Assembly: GCA_027013095.1 (NCBI GenBank)
Contig: JALUYI010000010.1
Span: forward strand, 1 to 64,000
From: Paracoccaceae bacterium
Lineage (GTDB): Bacteria; Pseudomonadota; Alphaproteobacteria; Rhodobacterales; Rhodobacteraceae
Length of the DNA: 64,000 nt
Reading direction: 5' to 3'
This document shows, one piece after another, positions 35,247 to 41,215 of the stretch. The notes below the pieces were generated by a model. That model saw nothing but the letters and a program-made list of their open reading frames with translations. It made no database searches and was not told the DNA's origin. Position 1 is the stretch's first letter; each line of letters opens with the position of its first letter. A program made the position numbers and the translations under genes.

Positions 35247-35792
35247 TTACGACGCCCCCGACAGCTCTTTCTTGTGCAGCCAGTCGGCGTGTCGGGGGGC
35301 CTTCTTGGTCTTTGACCACTCCTCCAGCATATCCCATTTCACCGCATCCATACGCGCCAGCAACGCCGCTTCCTCGGGGTCCGGGCAAGCCAGTTCTATC
35401 CGGTGACCATTGGGATCAAAGAAATAGATCGAGTGGAACAACGAGTGGTCCGTCACGCCCAGAACCTCGACTCCATTTTCCTCAAGATGGGCCTTGAAGG
35501 CCAGCAATTCGTCACGATCCCGCACCTTGAAGGCGATGTGTTGCACCCATTCCGGCGTGTTGGGGTCGCGCCCCATCTCGGGTTTGGTCGGCAGTTCAAA
35601 GAACGCCAGGACATTGTCATTTCCCGCATCCAGAAAGATGTGCATATAGGGGTCCGGCTCATGGGTTGACGGCACGCGGTCCTCGGCGATGGCCAGAACA
35701 AAATCCATGTTCAGCATCTTGCCATACCACTCAACCGTTTCCTTGGCATCCTTGCAGCGATAGGCGACATGGTGGATTTGATCGATCTTCAT
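35247..35792 (-). CDS. VOC family protein, candidate ring-cleavage dioxygenase or glyoxalase-like enzyme
   Basis: A 181-residue vicinal-oxygen-chelate protein with two beta-alpha-beta3 modules. Likely metal ligands are His7 or His8, Glu66 in FFELP, His85 in VQHIAF and Glu133 in HRIELA. That set is used by glyoxalase-type lyases; a His-His-Glu subset is used by extradiol dioxygenases. It is the last gene of the fahA operon, 32 bases after DUF2783. Because no cupin-type homogentisate dioxygenase is here, this protein is a candidate for the ring-opening step, but that is inference. ATG 35792 follows GGAAAG. Confidence 0.85.
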   Translation of the reverse strand: MKIDQIHHVAYRCKDAKETVEWYGKMLNMDFVLAIAEDRVPSTHEPDPYMHIFLDAGNDNVLAFFELPTKPEMGRDPNTPEWVQHIAFKVRDRDELLAFKAHLEENGVEVLGVTDHSLFHSIYFFDPNGHRIELACPDPEEAALLARMDAVKWDMLEEWSKTKKAPRHADWLHKKELSGAS

Positions 35793-35824
35793 GGTCTTTC
35801 CTTTCCCTTCACCCCGGGGGGCAA

Positions 35825-36046
35825 TCATGCTTTGGTGTCCGCAACCTCTTTTGCGCCGGGGTCAAGGGCGGCGCGCATGGCCGCGCTCAGGACCTGACGA
35901 TTGCCGATATGGTTGGCCAAGAGCAGGATCAAACGGGAGTTAATCAGTTCACTCTCGGCCTTAGATCGCCCCTCGTGCAGGGCCAGAAGCTCGGCATAGA
36001 AATCGTCGGGACGGTCGATATTCGGATATGTGTTCAAGGGGCTCAT
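35825..36046 (-). CDS. DUF2783 small protein
   Basis: A 73-residue soluble helical protein of DUF2783, with the pattern PNIDRPDDFYAELLALHEG and later LILLLANHIGN typical of the family. Function is unknown. It sits 12 bases after the flavin monooxygenase gene and 32 bases before the VOC gene. DUF2783 proteins typically accompany such monooxygenases, which suggests a small partner or stabilising subunit (inference). Confidence 0.85.
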   Translation of the reverse strand: MSPLNTYPNIDRPDDFYAELLALHEGRSKAESELINSRLILLLANHIGNRQVLSAAMRAALDPGAKEVADTKA

Positions 36047-36058
36047 CGTTCTCTCTCG

Positions 36059-37663
36059 TCAGACACGCGCAGTGGCGGTTTTCAGGGCGGCAATCACCGC
36101 GTCACGATCAAATTCACGCCAGCGCGCAACCACGTGCTGGTCCGGGCGCAGCAGATAAATCGCCGCCTTTTCATCGCCAAGATACCGGCGGGCAAGGGTC
36201 TGGTTGGCGGCGGCATCGACCTTGAGGGTTTCCACTGTGATCCCCCCATCCTCCAGATCCGAGGGCGCCGGGGCCCCGATTGCCAGCAGTTGAAACCGAT
36301 TGCCCAGACGCTCCAGCAACCAGCCATCGGCCAAGGGAGCGTCCACCGCCGGAGCGCCGGGGCGCAAATTGGGCGGCAGGCCGGCACAATCCGGCCCGTT
36401 CAGGGACGAGCCGTCATAGATACAAGGCAACGACAGGCGCCCCGTGTTCACCAGCGGGCGAGCAAAATCATATGCTTCGGCCAGATCCAGCACCGCATCG
36501 CGGAAATTCCGGCTGGCTTCGGATTTCGGCGTGATAAAATCGGTCGAGCGGGTCGAATTCAACAGGTTTTCGTCGGCACCAAGAACGCGCTCATCACTGT
36601 AGCTGTCCAGCAGCGCGTCCGGGGCCTTGCCATCAAGGACCAGCTTCAGTTTCCAGACCAGATTGTCGGTGTCCTGCAGACCCGAATTCGCACCGCGCGC
36701 ACCAAAGGGCGAAACCTGATGCGCGGCGTCGCCCGCAAACAGCACCCGGCCATAGCGGAACTTCTCCATTCGGCAGCACTGGAAGGTGTAGATCGAGGTC
36801 CACTCCAGCTCGAATTTCGTCTCCTCGCCCAGCATCGCGCGCAGGCGGCGCCGGACGTTTTCGGGTTTCAATTCTTCCTCGCGGTCGATGTTCCAGCCCA
36901 GTTGGAAATCGATCCGCCAGACGTTGTCGGGTTGTTTGTGCAAAAGCGCCGACTGGCCACGATTAAAGGGCGGATCAAACCAGAACCAGCGTTCAGTCGG
37001 AAAGTCGGCCTCCATGATGGTGTCGGCGATCAGGAAATTGTCCTCGAACACCCGGCCCTCGAAATCCAGCCCCAGCATGGTGCGGGTTGCCGATTTGGCG
37101 CCGTCACAGGCAATCAGCCACTCGGCCTCGAGGTTATACGGGCCTTCGGGCGTGTCGATTTCAAGGCTGACATATGTGTCGTGTTGCCCGACCGCCGCCA
37201 GATGGTTGCCTCCGCGCAGATCAACCGGCTTGCCCGCCGCCTGCAGCTCGCGAATGCGCCGGACGAGGAATTCCTCAAAGTAGTATTGCTGAAGGTTGAT
37301 AAAGGCGGGGCGGTGATGCTCTGACTCGGGCAACAGTTCGAACCCGTAGATCTGGCGCGTGTCGCGAAAGACCTTGCCCGTATCCCAGACCACCCCCTTG
37401 TCCACCATCGGTTGCGCACAGCCGAGACGGTCGAGGATTTCAAGCGGGCGCTTGGCGAAACAGATCGCGCGACTGCCAAAACTGACCTTGTCATTATCAT
37501 CCAGAACCACGACGGGAATGTCTTGCTGGGCCAGATCGATCGCCGCCGCAAGGCCCACGGGACCGGCACCCACCACCACCACCGAATGACGCACCGGCGC
37601 CACCGCATCCTGATCGGACGAGCGTGCATATTCATAAATCGGGGTCTCGAATATCTTGTTCAT
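36059..37663 (-). CDS. Class A FAD-dependent aromatic hydroxylase (MhpA-like)
   Basis: A 534-residue NAD(P)H-dependent flavoprotein monooxygenase. The dinucleotide fold starts VVVVGAGPVGLAAAIDLA (about residues 28-45). The DG motif is in ACDGAKSATR and the GD motif with FAD ribityl contacts is VLFAGDAAHQVSPFGARG. The C-terminal thioredoxin-like extension is that of the PheA/MhpA group. It should hydroxylate a phenolic substrate; the substrate is unknown. ATG 37663 is preferred to an extension overlapping the upstream gap. Neighbours are the MBL protein and DUF2783. Confidence 0.9.
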   Translation of the reverse strand: MNKIFETPIYEYARSSDQDAVAPVRHSVVVVGAGPVGLAAAIDLAQQDIPVVVLDDNDKVSFGSRAICFAKRPLEILDRLGCAQPMVDKGVVWDTGKVFRDTRQIYGFELLPESEHHRPAFINLQQYYFEEFLVRRIRELQAAGKPVDLRGGNHLAAVGQHDTYVSLEIDTPEGPYNLEAEWLIACDGAKSATRTMLGLDFEGRVFEDNFLIADTIMEADFPTERWFWFDPPFNRGQSALLHKQPDNVWRIDFQLGWNIDREEELKPENVRRRLRAMLGEETKFELEWTSIYTFQCCRMEKFRYGRVLFAGDAAHQVSPFGARGANSGLQDTDNLVWKLKLVLDGKAPDALLDSYSDERVLGADENLLNSTRSTDFITPKSEASRNFRDAVLDLAEAYDFARPLVNTGRLSLPCIYDGSSLNGPDCAGLPPNLRPGAPAVDAPLADGWLLERLGNRFQLLAIGAPAPSDLEDGGITVETLKVDAAANQTLARRYLGDEKAAIYLLRPDQHVVARWREFDRDAVIAALKTATARV

Positions 37664-37692
37664 GGCCTTGTCCTGTCTGTTGAGCGGTGCCC

Positions 37693-38643
37693 TTATCCTT
37701 GCAGGTCCGCCCACATCTGAAGGTCGCGCTCGGCGGTCCAGATGCGGGGGGTATCGATGCCGCGCGCCTCATCATAGGCACGAGCGACGTTGAACGGCAG
37801 GCAATGCTCGTAAATCGCGTAATCGCCGAATTTTGGGTCACAGGCCGCACGCACCGCATCCCACGCGTCCTTGAGGCTGCCACCGCGCGCCGCAACACGT
37901 GCTGCCGCCTTATAGGTGCTGTCAATGAAATCCTTGGTGTTGTCCAGCGCCGCCTTGACCATCTCGCGCCCCACCAGCGCATCACCGCGACCCGGCGCAA
38001 TGGCAACCGGATCAAACCAGCGCACATTTTCAATGGTATCGCCCCAGTCACCATAATGCCCATCGCCGCAATAGCAGGCCGAGTGGTATTCCACGATGTC
38101 GCCGGTGAACATGACCTCCTGATCCGGCACCCAGATCACTGCGTCTCCGGCGGTGTGGGCGCGCCCCAGATGCATGATGTCAACACGACGCTTGCCAAGG
38201 TAAACCGTCATCGCATCGCTGAAAGTGGTGGTCGGGTAGGTCAGGCCGGGGATACTTTCATGGCCTTCAAACAGGCGCGGAAAGCGTTGGAATTCGCTAT
38301 CCCAATCCTCTTGGCCGCGCTCGATCACCATGGCGCGGGCGGTGTCGGACATGATGATTTCCGGCGCGTTATAGGCGCTGGCGCCCAATACCCGTACCGC
38401 GTGATAATGGGTCAGGACAAGGTGGCTGATCGGTTTGTCGGTGACCTCGCGCACCTTTTCAATCACCTTATTCGCCAGACGCGGGGTGGCCTGCGCCTCG
38501 ACAATCATCACGCTTTCGTCGCCGATAATCACGCCCGAATTGGGGTCGCCCTCGGCGGTAAAGGCCCACAACCCCTCGCCAACCTCGGTAAAGCTGATCT
38601 TCTTTTCGGTCATATCGCCCATGGATGCGAATGCTTTTGCCAT
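37693..38643 (-). CDS. MBL-fold protein with altered metal site
   Basis: A 316-residue metallo-beta-lactamase-fold protein. The usual HxHxDH motif reads THYHAVRVLGA (residues 80-90), so the aspartate and second-site histidine are replaced by Val and Arg. Later ligands seem present: His in LGRAHTAGDA and Asp in FTGDIVE. It could bind one metal or act differently from standard hydrolases. It sits 14 bases after fahA and 29 bases before the flavin monooxygenase gene in the same operon. A thioester or lactone substrate from aromatic breakdown is possible, but there is no direct evidence. Confidence 0.88.
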   Translation of the reverse strand: MAKAFASMGDMTEKKISFTEVGEGLWAFTAEGDPNSGVIIGDESVMIVEAQATPRLANKVIEKVREVTDKPISHLVLTHYHAVRVLGASAYNAPEIIMSDTARAMVIERGQEDWDSEFQRFPRLFEGHESIPGLTYPTTTFSDAMTVYLGKRRVDIMHLGRAHTAGDAVIWVPDQEVMFTGDIVEYHSACYCGDGHYGDWGDTIENVRWFDPVAIAPGRGDALVGREMVKAALDNTKDFIDSTYKAAARVAARGGSLKDAWDAVRAACDPKFGDYAIYEHCLPFNVARAYDEARGIDTPRIWTAERDLQMWADLQG

Positions 38644-38657
38644 TGTGTTCTTCCCTC

Positions 38658-39941
38658 TTATTTTGTCCAGTCCGGCGGGGTGACAGCCGGCAGGATGGTG
38701 CCGGTACAGTCGCCAAAGCCAACGCGATAGCCGTCCCCTTGGGCATGGCCCGACAGGATCGCGGTATCGCCATCCTCAAGAAATGTGCGGATTTCGCCAC
38801 TGTCGAGCGTCAGCGGCTCCTTGCCGCCCCAGCTGAGTTCCAGCAGGCTGCCGCGGGTGTCCTTTGTGGGGCCGGAGATGGTGCCGGACCCCAGCAGATC
38901 GCCGGTGTTCATCTCGCAACCGCTGCTGGCGTGATGCGCCAGTTGTTGGGCGGCGGAATAATACATCTCGTTGTAATTGGTGTGGCTGAGCAGGGTCGCG
39001 CGGGTCCCGCCGGCCGGGCGCAGCCGCACCTCGAGATCGATATCATAGAGCATCGGCGCAGGCTCTTGCAAATAGGGCAGAAGCTCGACCTCGCGCGGTG
39101 GCGTTGGCGTGCGAAATGGCCCCAGCGCGGCCGCCGTAACGATCCATGGGCTAATCGAGGTGGCAAAGGCCTTGGCCTGAAACGGCCCCAGAGGCTGATA
39201 TTCCCAGGCCTGAATATCGCGCGCGGACCAGTCGTTCAGGATCACATAGCCAAAGATCATCGCATCGGCCTCGGCAACCGTCACCGGCTGGCCCATCTTG
39301 TTGCCAGTGCCAACGATCGCGCCCATTTCCAATTCGATATCAAGACGTCTGCTGGGGCCGAAAACTGGCGCCTCTGCCCCCGCCGGCTTTAGCTGGCCCA
39401 GCGGGCGGTGGATGTCGGTGCCGCTGACCACCACCGTTGACGCACGACCGTTATAACCGATCGGAATGTGCAACCAGTTGGGCGGCAGCGCGTTTTCCGG
39501 CCCGCGAAACATCGAGCCGACGTTGAACGCATGATTCCGCCCGGCATAGAAATCGGTGTATTCCGCAACCACGATGGGCAGGTGCATGGTGGCGTCCTTT
39601 TGGGCCACCAGCGCGCGGGCGCAAAGTTCGCTGTTGGCGGCCAGCGCGTCGTCCCCGCCCTCAATCAAAAGATCCGTCAGACGCGCGCGCAAGTCCGCCC
39701 AGGCGCGCGGGCCAAGCTCGATAAACTCGTTCCAGAAGGGGACCTCGAAGACCTCTTCGTAATTGACCTCGATCAGGCGCTGTTCCTCGAGCAGGCTGAG
39801 ATCAAGGATCATGTCTCCGATTGCCACTCCACAGCGCGGCGGGGTCGAGTCCGTCGAGAACACCCCATAGGGCAGATTGTTCAGTGGAAATGGGCAAACA
39901 GCTGTGTTGGCGCTGTCGATCCATGATTTCAAAAGTGGCAT
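38658..39941 (-). CDS. fahA: Fumarylacetoacetase
   Basis: A 427-residue metal-dependent hydrolase that splits fumarylacetoacetate to fumarate and acetoacetate, the last step of tyrosine/homogentisate breakdown. The N-terminal SH3-like domain (NLPYGVFS) is followed by the FAH core: YTDFYAGRNHAFNVGSMFRG, the metal site DIELEMGA, ILNDWSARDIQAWEY and SGCEMNTGDLLGSGTISG. Length is typical of the long FAH class. It heads the minus-strand operon and faces marR across a palindromic operator. With maiA it defines the pathway as gentisate- or homogentisate-like. Confidence 0.94.
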   Translation of the reverse strand: MPLLKSWIDSANTAVCPFPLNNLPYGVFSTDSTPPRCGVAIGDMILDLSLLEEQRLIEVNYEEVFEVPFWNEFIELGPRAWADLRARLTDLLIEGGDDALAANSELCARALVAQKDATMHLPIVVAEYTDFYAGRNHAFNVGSMFRGPENALPPNWLHIPIGYNGRASTVVVSGTDIHRPLGQLKPAGAEAPVFGPSRRLDIELEMGAIVGTGNKMGQPVTVAEADAMIFGYVILNDWSARDIQAWEYQPLGPFQAKAFATSISPWIVTAAALGPFRTPTPPREVELLPYLQEPAPMLYDIDLEVRLRPAGGTRATLLSHTNYNEMYYSAAQQLAHHASSGCEMNTGDLLGSGTISGPTKDTRGSLLELSWGGKEPLTLDSGEIRTFLEDGDTAILSGHAQGDGYRVGFGDCTGTILPAVTPPDWTK

Positions 39942-39955
39942 CCTGATCCTTTGCG

Positions 39956-40026
39956 GTTGCAGTTGCAGCGGCCGAAACGGCGCGCGGCGATCTTTGCGCC
40001 GACCTTATCGTTGCAAATGCAACGAT
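39956..40026. promoter_or_regulatory. MarR-type operator region between fahA and marR
   Basis: ATCGTTGCAAATGCAACGAT (40007-40026) is a 20-bp palindrome with 9-bp perfect arms, the size and form of MarR-family operators. Closer to fahA, the half-site GTTGCA is repeated in tandem at 39956-39961 and 39962-39967. Control of both divergent transcripts by the adjacent MarR protein is the natural reading. Confidence 0.7.
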
Positions 40027-40115
40027 GTCAAGGAAAGAGTCCCCACCGACCTTGAAACAGAACGCAATCCGTGCGCTTATAAGATCGTATCAAACGCAAC
40101 AATCAAGGCAACCCG

Positions 40116-40583
40116 ATGACCGACGCCGTGACCGATACCCAAAGCGATGACGCGGACGATTTCGTGCTCGAGGATTTCCTCCCCTATCAACTGGCGATCC
40201 TGTCCAGCCGGATCAGCGACGGATTTTCGCTCTGTTACCGCAAGAAATTCGGGCTCAGCGTCTCGGAGTGGCGCGTCATCGCCCATTTGATGCGCGCCGA
40301 CAAGGTCAGCATCCGCGAAATCTACAACCGCGTCGCCATGGATAAATCCAAGGTCAGCCGCGCCGCCGCCCGGCTGGAACAGGCCGGCTATATTCAAAAA
40401 CAGGGCTGCGCGCGCGACCGTAGACTGGTTGAATTGTCCCTGACGCCAAAGGGGCGCGCGGTGGCCCGTGAGATCGGCCCCATGGGGCTGAAATACGCCC
40501 GCGATATCCTGCGCAACCTGCCCGAAGAGGCCCGCGCCCCCTTTCTTGGCGCCATCCGAACCCTGCTGGAGGTTTATGAATGA
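40116..40583 (+). CDS. MarR-family transcriptional regulator
   Basis: A 155-residue winged-helix regulator. The DNA-binding part spans SVSEWRVIAHLMRADKVSI, VAMDKSKVSRAAARLEQAG and the wing ARDRRLVELSLTPKG. MarR proteins bind palindromes as dimers and release them when an aromatic ligand binds. A near-ideal palindrome lies 90 bases upstream, between this gene and fahA, so it likely controls both arms of the cluster. Its stop overlaps maiA by ATGA. Confidence 0.93.
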   Translation: MTDAVTDTQSDDADDFVLEDFLPYQLAILSSRISDGFSLCYRKKFGLSVSEWRVIAHLMRADKVSIREIYNRVAMDKSKVSRAAARLEQAGYIQKQGCARDRRLVELSLTPKGRAVAREIGPMGLKYARDILRNLPEEARAPFLGAIRTLLEVYE

Positions 40584-41215
40584 CCCCGGTTCTCTACGAC
40601 TACTGGCGTTCATCGGCGGCCTATCGGCTGCGCATTACGCTGAACCTTCTGGAATTGCCCTACACAAGCATCCCCGTCGATCTGAGAGCAGGCGAGCAGC
40701 GCCAAAAGGCCAACCTGCAACGCAACCCGCAAGGGTTGGTTCCAACCCTCGATATCGACGGGCACAGCCTGACCCAGTCGCTGGCGATCATCGAATATCT
40801 GGACGAAACCCGATCCGGCGGCCTGTTGCCTCCCGAGCCGCTGGGGCGGGCGCGGGTGCGGCGTCTGTCCTATGCAATAGCGATGGAAATTCACCCGGTC
40901 TGTAACCTGTCCGTGGCCCGGTTCGGAACCGAAAACTCGGCTGGAAATCTGTCGATGAGAGACTGGATGCACGCCTTTATTCCGCGTGGTCTGGCGGCGG
41001 TCGAGACTATGCTGGCCGAGGCCGAAACCGGCCTTTATGCCCACGGTGATCGCGTCAGCATGGCCGACATCTGCCTGCTGCCGCAGGTCTATAACGCCAC
41101 CCGATGGGAAATCGACCTTGACCAGATGCCACGGATTTCGCGCCTTGCGGCCCGTCTGGCCGAGATCCCTGCTTTTGCCCGGGCCTATCCCGACGCACAC
41201 GCCCCCGCAAGATAG
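40580..41215 (+). CDS. maiA: Maleylacetoacetate (or maleylpyruvate) isomerase, zeta-class GST
   Basis: A 211-residue zeta-class glutathione transferase that isomerises maleylacetoacetate to fumarylacetoacetate using glutathione. The N-terminal YDYWRSSAAYRLRI contains the family's SSxxxR glutathione-contact motif, followed by NPQGLVPTLDIDG and TQSLAIIEYLDE. Zeta enzymes can also act on maleylpyruvate, so the exact substrate depends on the ring-cleavage product. It is translationally coupled to marR, and its product feeds FahA across the divergent promoter. Confidence 0.92.
   Translation: MTPVLYDYWRSSAAYRLRITLNLLELPYTSIPVDLRAGEQRQKANLQRNPQGLVPTLDIDGHSLTQSLAIIEYLDETRSGGLLPPEPLGRARVRRLSYAIAMEIHPVCNLSVARFGTENSAGNLSMRDWMHAFIPRGLAAVETMLAEAETGLYAHGDRVSMADICLLPQVYNATRWEIDLDQMPRISRLAARLAEIPAFARAYPDAHAPAR

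Follow-up and report, generated by a model that had tools for sequence, protein, structure and literature searches.

The 64,000-nucleotide stretch analysed here (positions 1 to 64,000 of contig JALUYI010000010.1, assembly GCA_027013095.1, from a Paracoccaceae bacterium; hereafter the window) carries at 35247-41215 a predicted complete homogentisate catabolic cluster. Ring cleavage in this cluster would be performed by a homogentisate 1,2-dioxygenase of the vicinal oxygen chelate (VOC) fold and not by the cupin enzyme HmgA, a reading to which we give a probability of about 0.82. The solved structure nearest to the VOC protein by sequence is 9U42 (phmmer E 3.8e-83), released on 2025-07-23 under the title "Crystal Structure of Homogentisate 1,2-Dioxygenase from Acinetobacter in Complex with Zn ion". 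Cupin HmgA was not recognised in the source genome, and across Pseudomonadota that possess the fumarylacetoacetase FahA the VOC protein is found mainly where HmgA is missing.

Gene cluster and proposed pathway

The cluster consists of a minus-strand operon, transcribed in the order fahA, a gene for a metallo-beta-lactamase (MBL)-fold protein, a class A flavin monooxygenase (FMO) gene, DUF2783 and VOC, which faces plus-strand marR-maiA. The seven genes and an intergenic element are as follows.

35247-35792, minus strand: VOC-fold protein, 181 aa, probable homogentisate 1,2-dioxygenase (one-domain, type I extradiol-like); PF00903, likeness to 9U42, conserved H7/H8, H85, H116, Y123 and E133
35825-36046, minus strand: DUF2783 protein, 73 aa, probable MhaB-type coupling component of a flavin hydroxylase; Pfam match of 89.6 bits, cut-off 25
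36059-37663, minus strand: class A FMO, 534 aa, NF006002/PRK08132 subfamily, probable MhaA-type hydroxylase; NF006002 781.4 bits, cut-off 416
37693-38643, minus strand: MBL-fold hydrolase, 316 aa, relative of structure 8d2z, often adjoining the FMO-DUF2783 pair; profile and structure-database sequence matches
38658-39941, minus strand: fahA, fumarylacetoacetase; TIGR01266 553.9 bits, equivalog cut-off 375.3
40009-40024, no strand: inverted repeat CGTTGCAAATGCAACG, perfect 7-base arms around AA, candidate MarR operator in the marR-fahA intergenic region; the same element stands beside hmgA in congeners
40116-40583, plus strand: MarR-family regulator, 155 aa; profile match
40580-41215, plus strand: maiA, maleylacetoacetate isomerase; TIGR01262 247.3 bits, equivalog cut-off 171.05

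An earlier interpretation made from the letters alone (the sequence-only reading) had described this operon opposite marR-maiA, and all seven of its genes are indeed present. It had also given the VOC protein 181 residues; the same start, at position 35792, was favoured here. The profile matched by the VOC protein is Glyoxalase (PF00903, 65.1 bits against a cut-off of 20.6), and the maiA and fahA products alongside it both exceed their equivalog cut-offs.

In the proposed pathway, the FMO and the DUF2783 protein would hydroxylate 3-hydroxyphenylacetate, or another hydroxyphenylacetate, to homogentisate. The VOC protein may then bind Fe(II) through H7 or H8 together with H85 and E133, and open the ring with the help of H116 and Y123 to yield maleylacetoacetate, as suggested by its crystallised relative, the conserved residues and the gene context. 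On equivalog-level annotation, MaiA would isomerise the maleylacetoacetate and FahA would hydrolyse the resulting compound to fumarate and acetoacetate.

Likeness of the VOC protein to extradiol dioxygenases

The predicted model of the VOC protein (mean pLDDT 92.4) superimposes on 9U42 with a Z score of 20.9, 71% identity and a root-mean-square deviation of 1.5 over 166 residues, the next row reaching Z 16.3; both proteins share the same single-domain VOC fold. Foldseek likewise placed 9U42 at the top, followed by the one-domain L-DOPA dioxygenase of Streptomyces sclerotialus (6ON1/6ON3). The latter also consists of a single VOC domain as a one-domain type I extradiol dioxygenase, but its identity to the window protein is 18-21% and its substrate is of the catechol type.

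Residues H7, H8, H85, H116, Y123 and E133 are invariant across 64 aligned VOC sequences, and in the family profile H85, H116, Y123 and E133 align with the C-terminal domain of the catechol 2,3-dioxygenases 5zsz and 5znh. We take H7/H8, H85 and E133 to be the 2-His-1-Glu metal ligands, and H116 and Y123 to be the catalytic His and Tyr of the extradiol type. The PROSITE extradiol pattern occurs in 142 of the 143 VOC family members including the window protein, and arises in 4 of 100000 shuffles of that protein. These 143 rows include five pairs of identical proteins drawn from two collections, leaving 138 distinct sequences. In a tree of 114 VOC proteins, the window protein and the A. baumannii VOC proteins fall into one branch of 79 rows (support 100/99), and FMO-linked and hppD-linked members interleave.

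Neither Pfam nor NCBIfam holds a named family for a VOC-type homogentisate dioxygenase, and the protein is listed there as glyoxalase/VOC only. No description of such an enzyme was found among the matches listed from open-licence PMC papers. The enzyme type has already been named in the PDB (9U42, 2025), and a VOC-type homogentisate dioxygenase is thus not new as a kind.

Canonical HmgA and HPPD in the source genome and its congeners

The sequence-only reading had found no cupin hmgA in the cluster or window and had proposed a search of the remaining genome. Two HmgA queries run against the window by tblastn gave a best E of 0.12; this search did not cover gentisate dioxygenase or other ring-cleaving families. 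In the genome, a 59-contig draft of 2.91 Mb with a completeness rated at 100%, neither PF04209 (HgmA_C) nor full-length TIGR01015 matched, so that the absence noted before now extends to the whole assembly. An hmgA elsewhere in the genome, one half of what the sequence-only reading had named as refuting its idea, was thus looked for and not found. HPPD was also missing from the genome at E <= 1e-3, and an HPPD-fed tyrosine route was therefore rejected for this genome.

All nine congeners examined (G001-G009) possess hmgA by TIGR01015. Five of them (G003, G004, G005, G006 and G009) have VOC as well, and the other four have hmgA only. Among the loci of the five VOC-positive congeners, which were the ones read, hmgA lies between marR and fahA in three: G006 (L199), G009 (L212) and G003 (L213). 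In G005 (L201) and G004 (L202) it adjoins fahA, with no marR match in the fetched stretch. VOC lies away from hmgA in G003 and G009 (about 25 kb off; on a different contig). In the window the marR-fahA junction is an intact 174 bp within a 90.8 kb contig, and tblastn of 33-44 kb for an hmgA remnant gave a best E of 0.15 with nothing inside the gap. Since the marR-fahA site occupied by hmgA in three congeners lacks it here and the genome has no HPPD, VOC is the sole candidate for homogentisate cleavage recognised in the searches. Cupin HmgA and VOC proteins have unrelated folds; the reaction proposed for the two is the same.

Distribution of VOC and HmgA

A sample of 348 Pseudomonadota genomes was scored for VOC (E <= 1e-45), HgmA_C and FahA (TIGR01266 at E <= 1e-60), which were present in 42, 115 and 70 genomes, respectively. 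Where HgmA_C matched weakly or in part, the genome was scored HmgA-negative; this concerns six genomes, namely G230, G344, G268, G524 and G538 (E > 1e-7) and G377 (5.7e-12). G335 and G332, whose weak partial TIGR01015 matches fell below the cut-off, were also scored negative, and G395 (HgmA_C E 5e-32) was scored positive. Among FahA-positive genomes, VOC was found in 10 of 14 without HmgA compared with 7 of 56 with it (Fisher p 3e-5, kinship ignored). With G377 rescored as HmgA-positive, the figures became 9 of 13 against 8 of 57 (p 1.6e-4). HmgA was absent from 31 of the 42 VOC-positive genomes, and HPPD was present in 28 of those 31.

In a second sample of 199 Rhodobacteraceae genomes, 38 of 40 VOC matches were used (at least 74% identity), with G073 (49%) and G160 (58%) excluded. 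FahA accompanied VOC in 38/38 genomes, against 130/199 overall (p 2e-8). The exchange of VOC and HmgA is clear in the phylum sample; in Rhodobacteraceae both enzymes often occur together.

Side observations from the phylum sample concern other states of this step. In G377 the hmgA beside fahA is cut to two fragments (L228:5301-5597; TIGR01015 positions 46-78 and 368-429); this genome keeps a VOC copy, lacks HPPD and represents a further instance of hmgA decay. Four genomes sharing one family label (G233, G295, G380 and G540; L215-L222) have HPPD and FahA with neither HmgA nor VOC, and no VOC-family open reading frame (ORF) was found near their fahA or hppD at E <= 1 in the fetched stretches. 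Translations of 20 ORFs in nine loci, of which 19 belong to these genomes and one to G052, included no recognisable dioxygenase (some of the ORFs may be antisense to real genes), and neither did ten further translations, eight of them from the same four genomes. Possibly a third enzyme performs homogentisate cleavage there.

Gene order around VOC and HmgA

Locus counts refer to fetched stretches of limited length; a gene not seen in a locus may still be present elsewhere in that genome. For 31 of the 143 VOC proteins, hppD but not the FMO lies within 5 kb, and hmgA is found in none of these 31 fetched loci; hppD and VOC share a strand in 29, in 27 of which they are 3-240 bp apart by match edges. 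An FMO without hppD is near 76 VOC proteins (hmgA in 37 of the loci), both are near four (hmgA in 3 of 4) and neither is near 32 (hmgA in 4 of 32). Of the 43 loci of the phylum sample (L151-L193), 21 include hppD; they come from 20 genomes, of which 19 show no HgmA_C match and one, G395, a distant one. VOC relatives with about 80% identity stand immediately behind hppD in the hmgA-less loci L094, L095, L096, L097, L101 and L105.

For comparison, eight hmgA/fahA regions were hand-picked from seven HmgA-positive genomes without VOC. In four of them (L232, L234, L236 and L237) the FMO-DUF2783 pair stands on the hmgA side of fahA, accompanied in three by the MBL gene. HmgA immediately follows DUF2783 in L232; the others leave about one gene's room in between, taken in L234 by a transporter, in L237 by the MBL gene and in L236 by 1.35 kb of unlabelled sequence. 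The hydroxylase pair is thus linked to homogentisate-cleavage genes both in these regions and in loci of the window type. Because HmgA stands there in these four regions and VOC in the window type, the two enzymes hold much the same place behind the pair.

Two further arrangements were observed. In plasmid pJBIWA005_2 of Enterobacter sp. JBIWA005 (L030; from lake water, predicted conjugative), VOC, an MFS transporter, an FAH-family hydrolase and maiA lie between transposase genes, and this plasmid suggests that the VOC-maiA-FAH module may be mobile. In Bradyrhizobium diazoefficiens, the available passages of one study list bll2330-bll2329-bsl2328, annotated as VOC, FAD-dependent oxidoreductase and DUF2783, as an operon that carries a putative site for NnrR, a regulator of denitrification, and whose expression is lowered in an nnrR mutant (PMC6710368); L183 has the same order. 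NnrR-linked control is odd for two oxygen-using enzymes.

Hydroxylase pair, MBL-fold protein and regulation

In Pseudomonas putida U, the flavoprotein MhaA (566 aa) and the coupling protein MhaB (60 aa) convert 3-hydroxyphenylacetate to homogentisate, and the order in LB400 is mhaA-mhaB-hmgA1-hmgB1-hmgC1, according to the available part of PMC3053370. The adjacent FMO (534 aa) and DUF2783 protein (73 aa) of the window fit this size pattern. As in P. putida U and Paraburkholderia xenovorans LB400, a large flavin hydroxylase and a small partner stand beside homogentisate genes; unlike those systems, which use cupin HmgA, the window has VOC instead, plus the MBL-fold gene. Because HPPD is missing, homogentisate here would probably derive from a hydroxyphenylacetate. 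The relatives of the FMO in the PDB are distant hydroxylases only (best E 2.7e-36). For the MBL-fold protein there is a close match in 8d2z (E 7.6e-113), whose function is not named.

The inverted repeat between the two divergent arms is probably the site from which MarR controls both, as judged from the position of the repeat. The repeat has one exact match in the window and two matches at up to 2 mismatches. Two are reached in 16 of 100 shuffles, so the window count is weak by itself. The element also stands beside hmgA in the congener loci L199, L201 and L212 and before the FMO in L198, L201 and L202, and it is this position, not the window count, that gives the repeat its weight. The exact core was found in 15 of 239 loci, some of which are overlapping stretches of one genome. 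At 39955-39970, 54 bp left of the perfect repeat, lies a weaker second copy (2 mismatches) that may be due to chance.

The Acinetobacter cluster

The cluster of A. baumannii VB958 runs permease, fahA-maiA-VOC (these three in one direction), IclR and hppD. VOC is thus accompanied by hppD there, whereas the window has the FMO-DUF2783-MBL block in a genome without HPPD. For strain AB4353, the available passages of one study report no hmgA homologue and, between hmgC and hmgR, a gene whose product has a dioxygenase domain of the type I ring-cleaving kind (PMC7646211). In two pyomelanin strains of A. baumannii, ISAba125 was located 128 nt upstream of fahA (PMC11945678, seen in part). Tn2006 was reported in a gene called hmgA, complementation of which removes the pigment; the available passages do not say which gene this is (PMC9431530). 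These insertion and pigment data agree with the presence of a dioxygenase in this operon and are no proof for the VOC gene.

A side observation concerns nomenclature. The hmgA reference given in the available part of PMC11945678 (NC_016603.1:3098928-3099560) spans 633 bp, the same length as maiA of VB958 (L028:9339-9971), and it overlaps the end of the hmgB reference as VB958 maiA overlaps fahA. Because of the equal length and the matching overlap, the name hmgA was probably put on maiA in that study.

Weighing of the evidence

The sequence-only reading had raised the possibility that the cluster is a para-diol pathway with a VOC enzyme in the place of HmgA. This idea is strengthened by the 71% identity to 9U42 and by the anti-correlation with HmgA among FahA-positive Pseudomonadota, and is further backed by the linkage to hppD without recognised hmgA and by the occurrence of HmgA beside the same hydroxylase pair elsewhere. 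Beyond the window, we consider it somewhat probable that the VOC proteins form a second homogentisate dioxygenase family, widespread (42/348 genomes) and without evolutionary relationship to HmgA, whose members repeatedly swap with HmgA in like operons, the window being a completed in-operon displacement.

Several results weigh against VOC as the replacement of HmgA. The structure 9U42, known here by its title alone, holds Zn and not Fe. The dioxygenase-domain gene of AB4353 was judged probably inactive in the available part of that study (PMC7646211). Across the full set of 348 genomes, the association between VOC and HmgA is not significant (p 0.48), and 25 of the 42 VOC-positive genomes lack a TIGR01266 FahA at E <= 1e-60; another FAH-family hydrolase occurs in 10 of the 43 phylum-sample VOC loci. 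The counts are uncorrected for kinship: the 10 HmgA-negative, VOC-positive genomes bear 7 family labels and the 4 HmgA-negative, VOC-negative genomes bear one. In the Rhodobacteraceae sample, HmgA is kept in 33 of the 38 VOC-positive genomes. VOC was found there in 5 of 10 FahA-positive genomes without HmgA and in 33 of 120 with it, which is not significant (p 0.13). Coexistence of VOC and hmgA in so many Rhodobacteraceae means that replacement alone is no full explanation. Finally, the assignment of FMO and DUF2783 as an MhaAB-type 3-hydroxyphenylacetate 6-hydroxylase is probable by analogy, and the FMO substrate is predicted.

In an alternative reading, VOC would cleave another para-diol made by the FMO, such as a substituted homogentisate or a gentisate-like compound, and HmgA would have served homogentisate and been lost here together with HPPD. 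The joint presence of HmgA and VOC in many Rhodobacterales clusters with an FMO would fit this, as would the retention of the FMO-VOC arm in a genome without HPPD and HmgA. Against it stand the VOC proteins of about 80% identity right after hppD in hmgA-less loci, where homogentisate is the expected substrate, the title of 9U42 and the interleaving of FMO-linked and hppD-linked members on the tree; we regard it as unlikely.

Considerably less probable is that the VOC protein is an accessory protein resembling glyoxalase, FosA or an antibiotic-binding protein, with an unrecognised enzyme elsewhere in the genome opening the ring. The fold is common to glyoxalase I and FosA/FosB, the genome searches covered HmgA and not gentisate dioxygenase or other ring-cleaving families, and the four HPPD- and FahA-positive genomes with neither HmgA nor VOC imply that some other enzyme may exist. 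Nevertheless, the glyoxalase rows score Z 16.3 and below against 20.9 for 9U42, the extradiol-type motif pervades the family, and the distribution of VOC against HmgA speaks for a dioxygenase. Scores against the curated Fos families (best 45.3 bits, cut-off 280) and glyox_I (19.8 bits, cut-off 120) also fell well below the cut-offs. An ordinary split pathway, with an hmgA missed by the assembly, could be imagined for a draft of 59 contigs; it was rejected and appears the most improbable of the three, given the rated completeness, the two profile searches and the intact junction at the site of hmgA in three congeners.

Implications

The cluster is very probably a homogentisate pathway that follows the usual logic and employs a ring-cleaving enzyme other than the textbook one, and relatives of its VOC protein occur in many other bacteria without HmgA. 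If VOC is a homogentisate dioxygenase, many HPPD-positive, HmgA-negative genomes that seem unable to complete the breakdown of tyrosine or hydroxyphenylacetate would in fact have the equipment to do so, and a protein listed merely as glyoxalase/VOC in Pfam and NCBIfam would gain a function. It would also explain homogentisate degradation by Acinetobacter, where one study, in its available passages, saw no hmgA (PMC7646211), and would make testable the question of why some operons hold two unrelated enzymes for one step.

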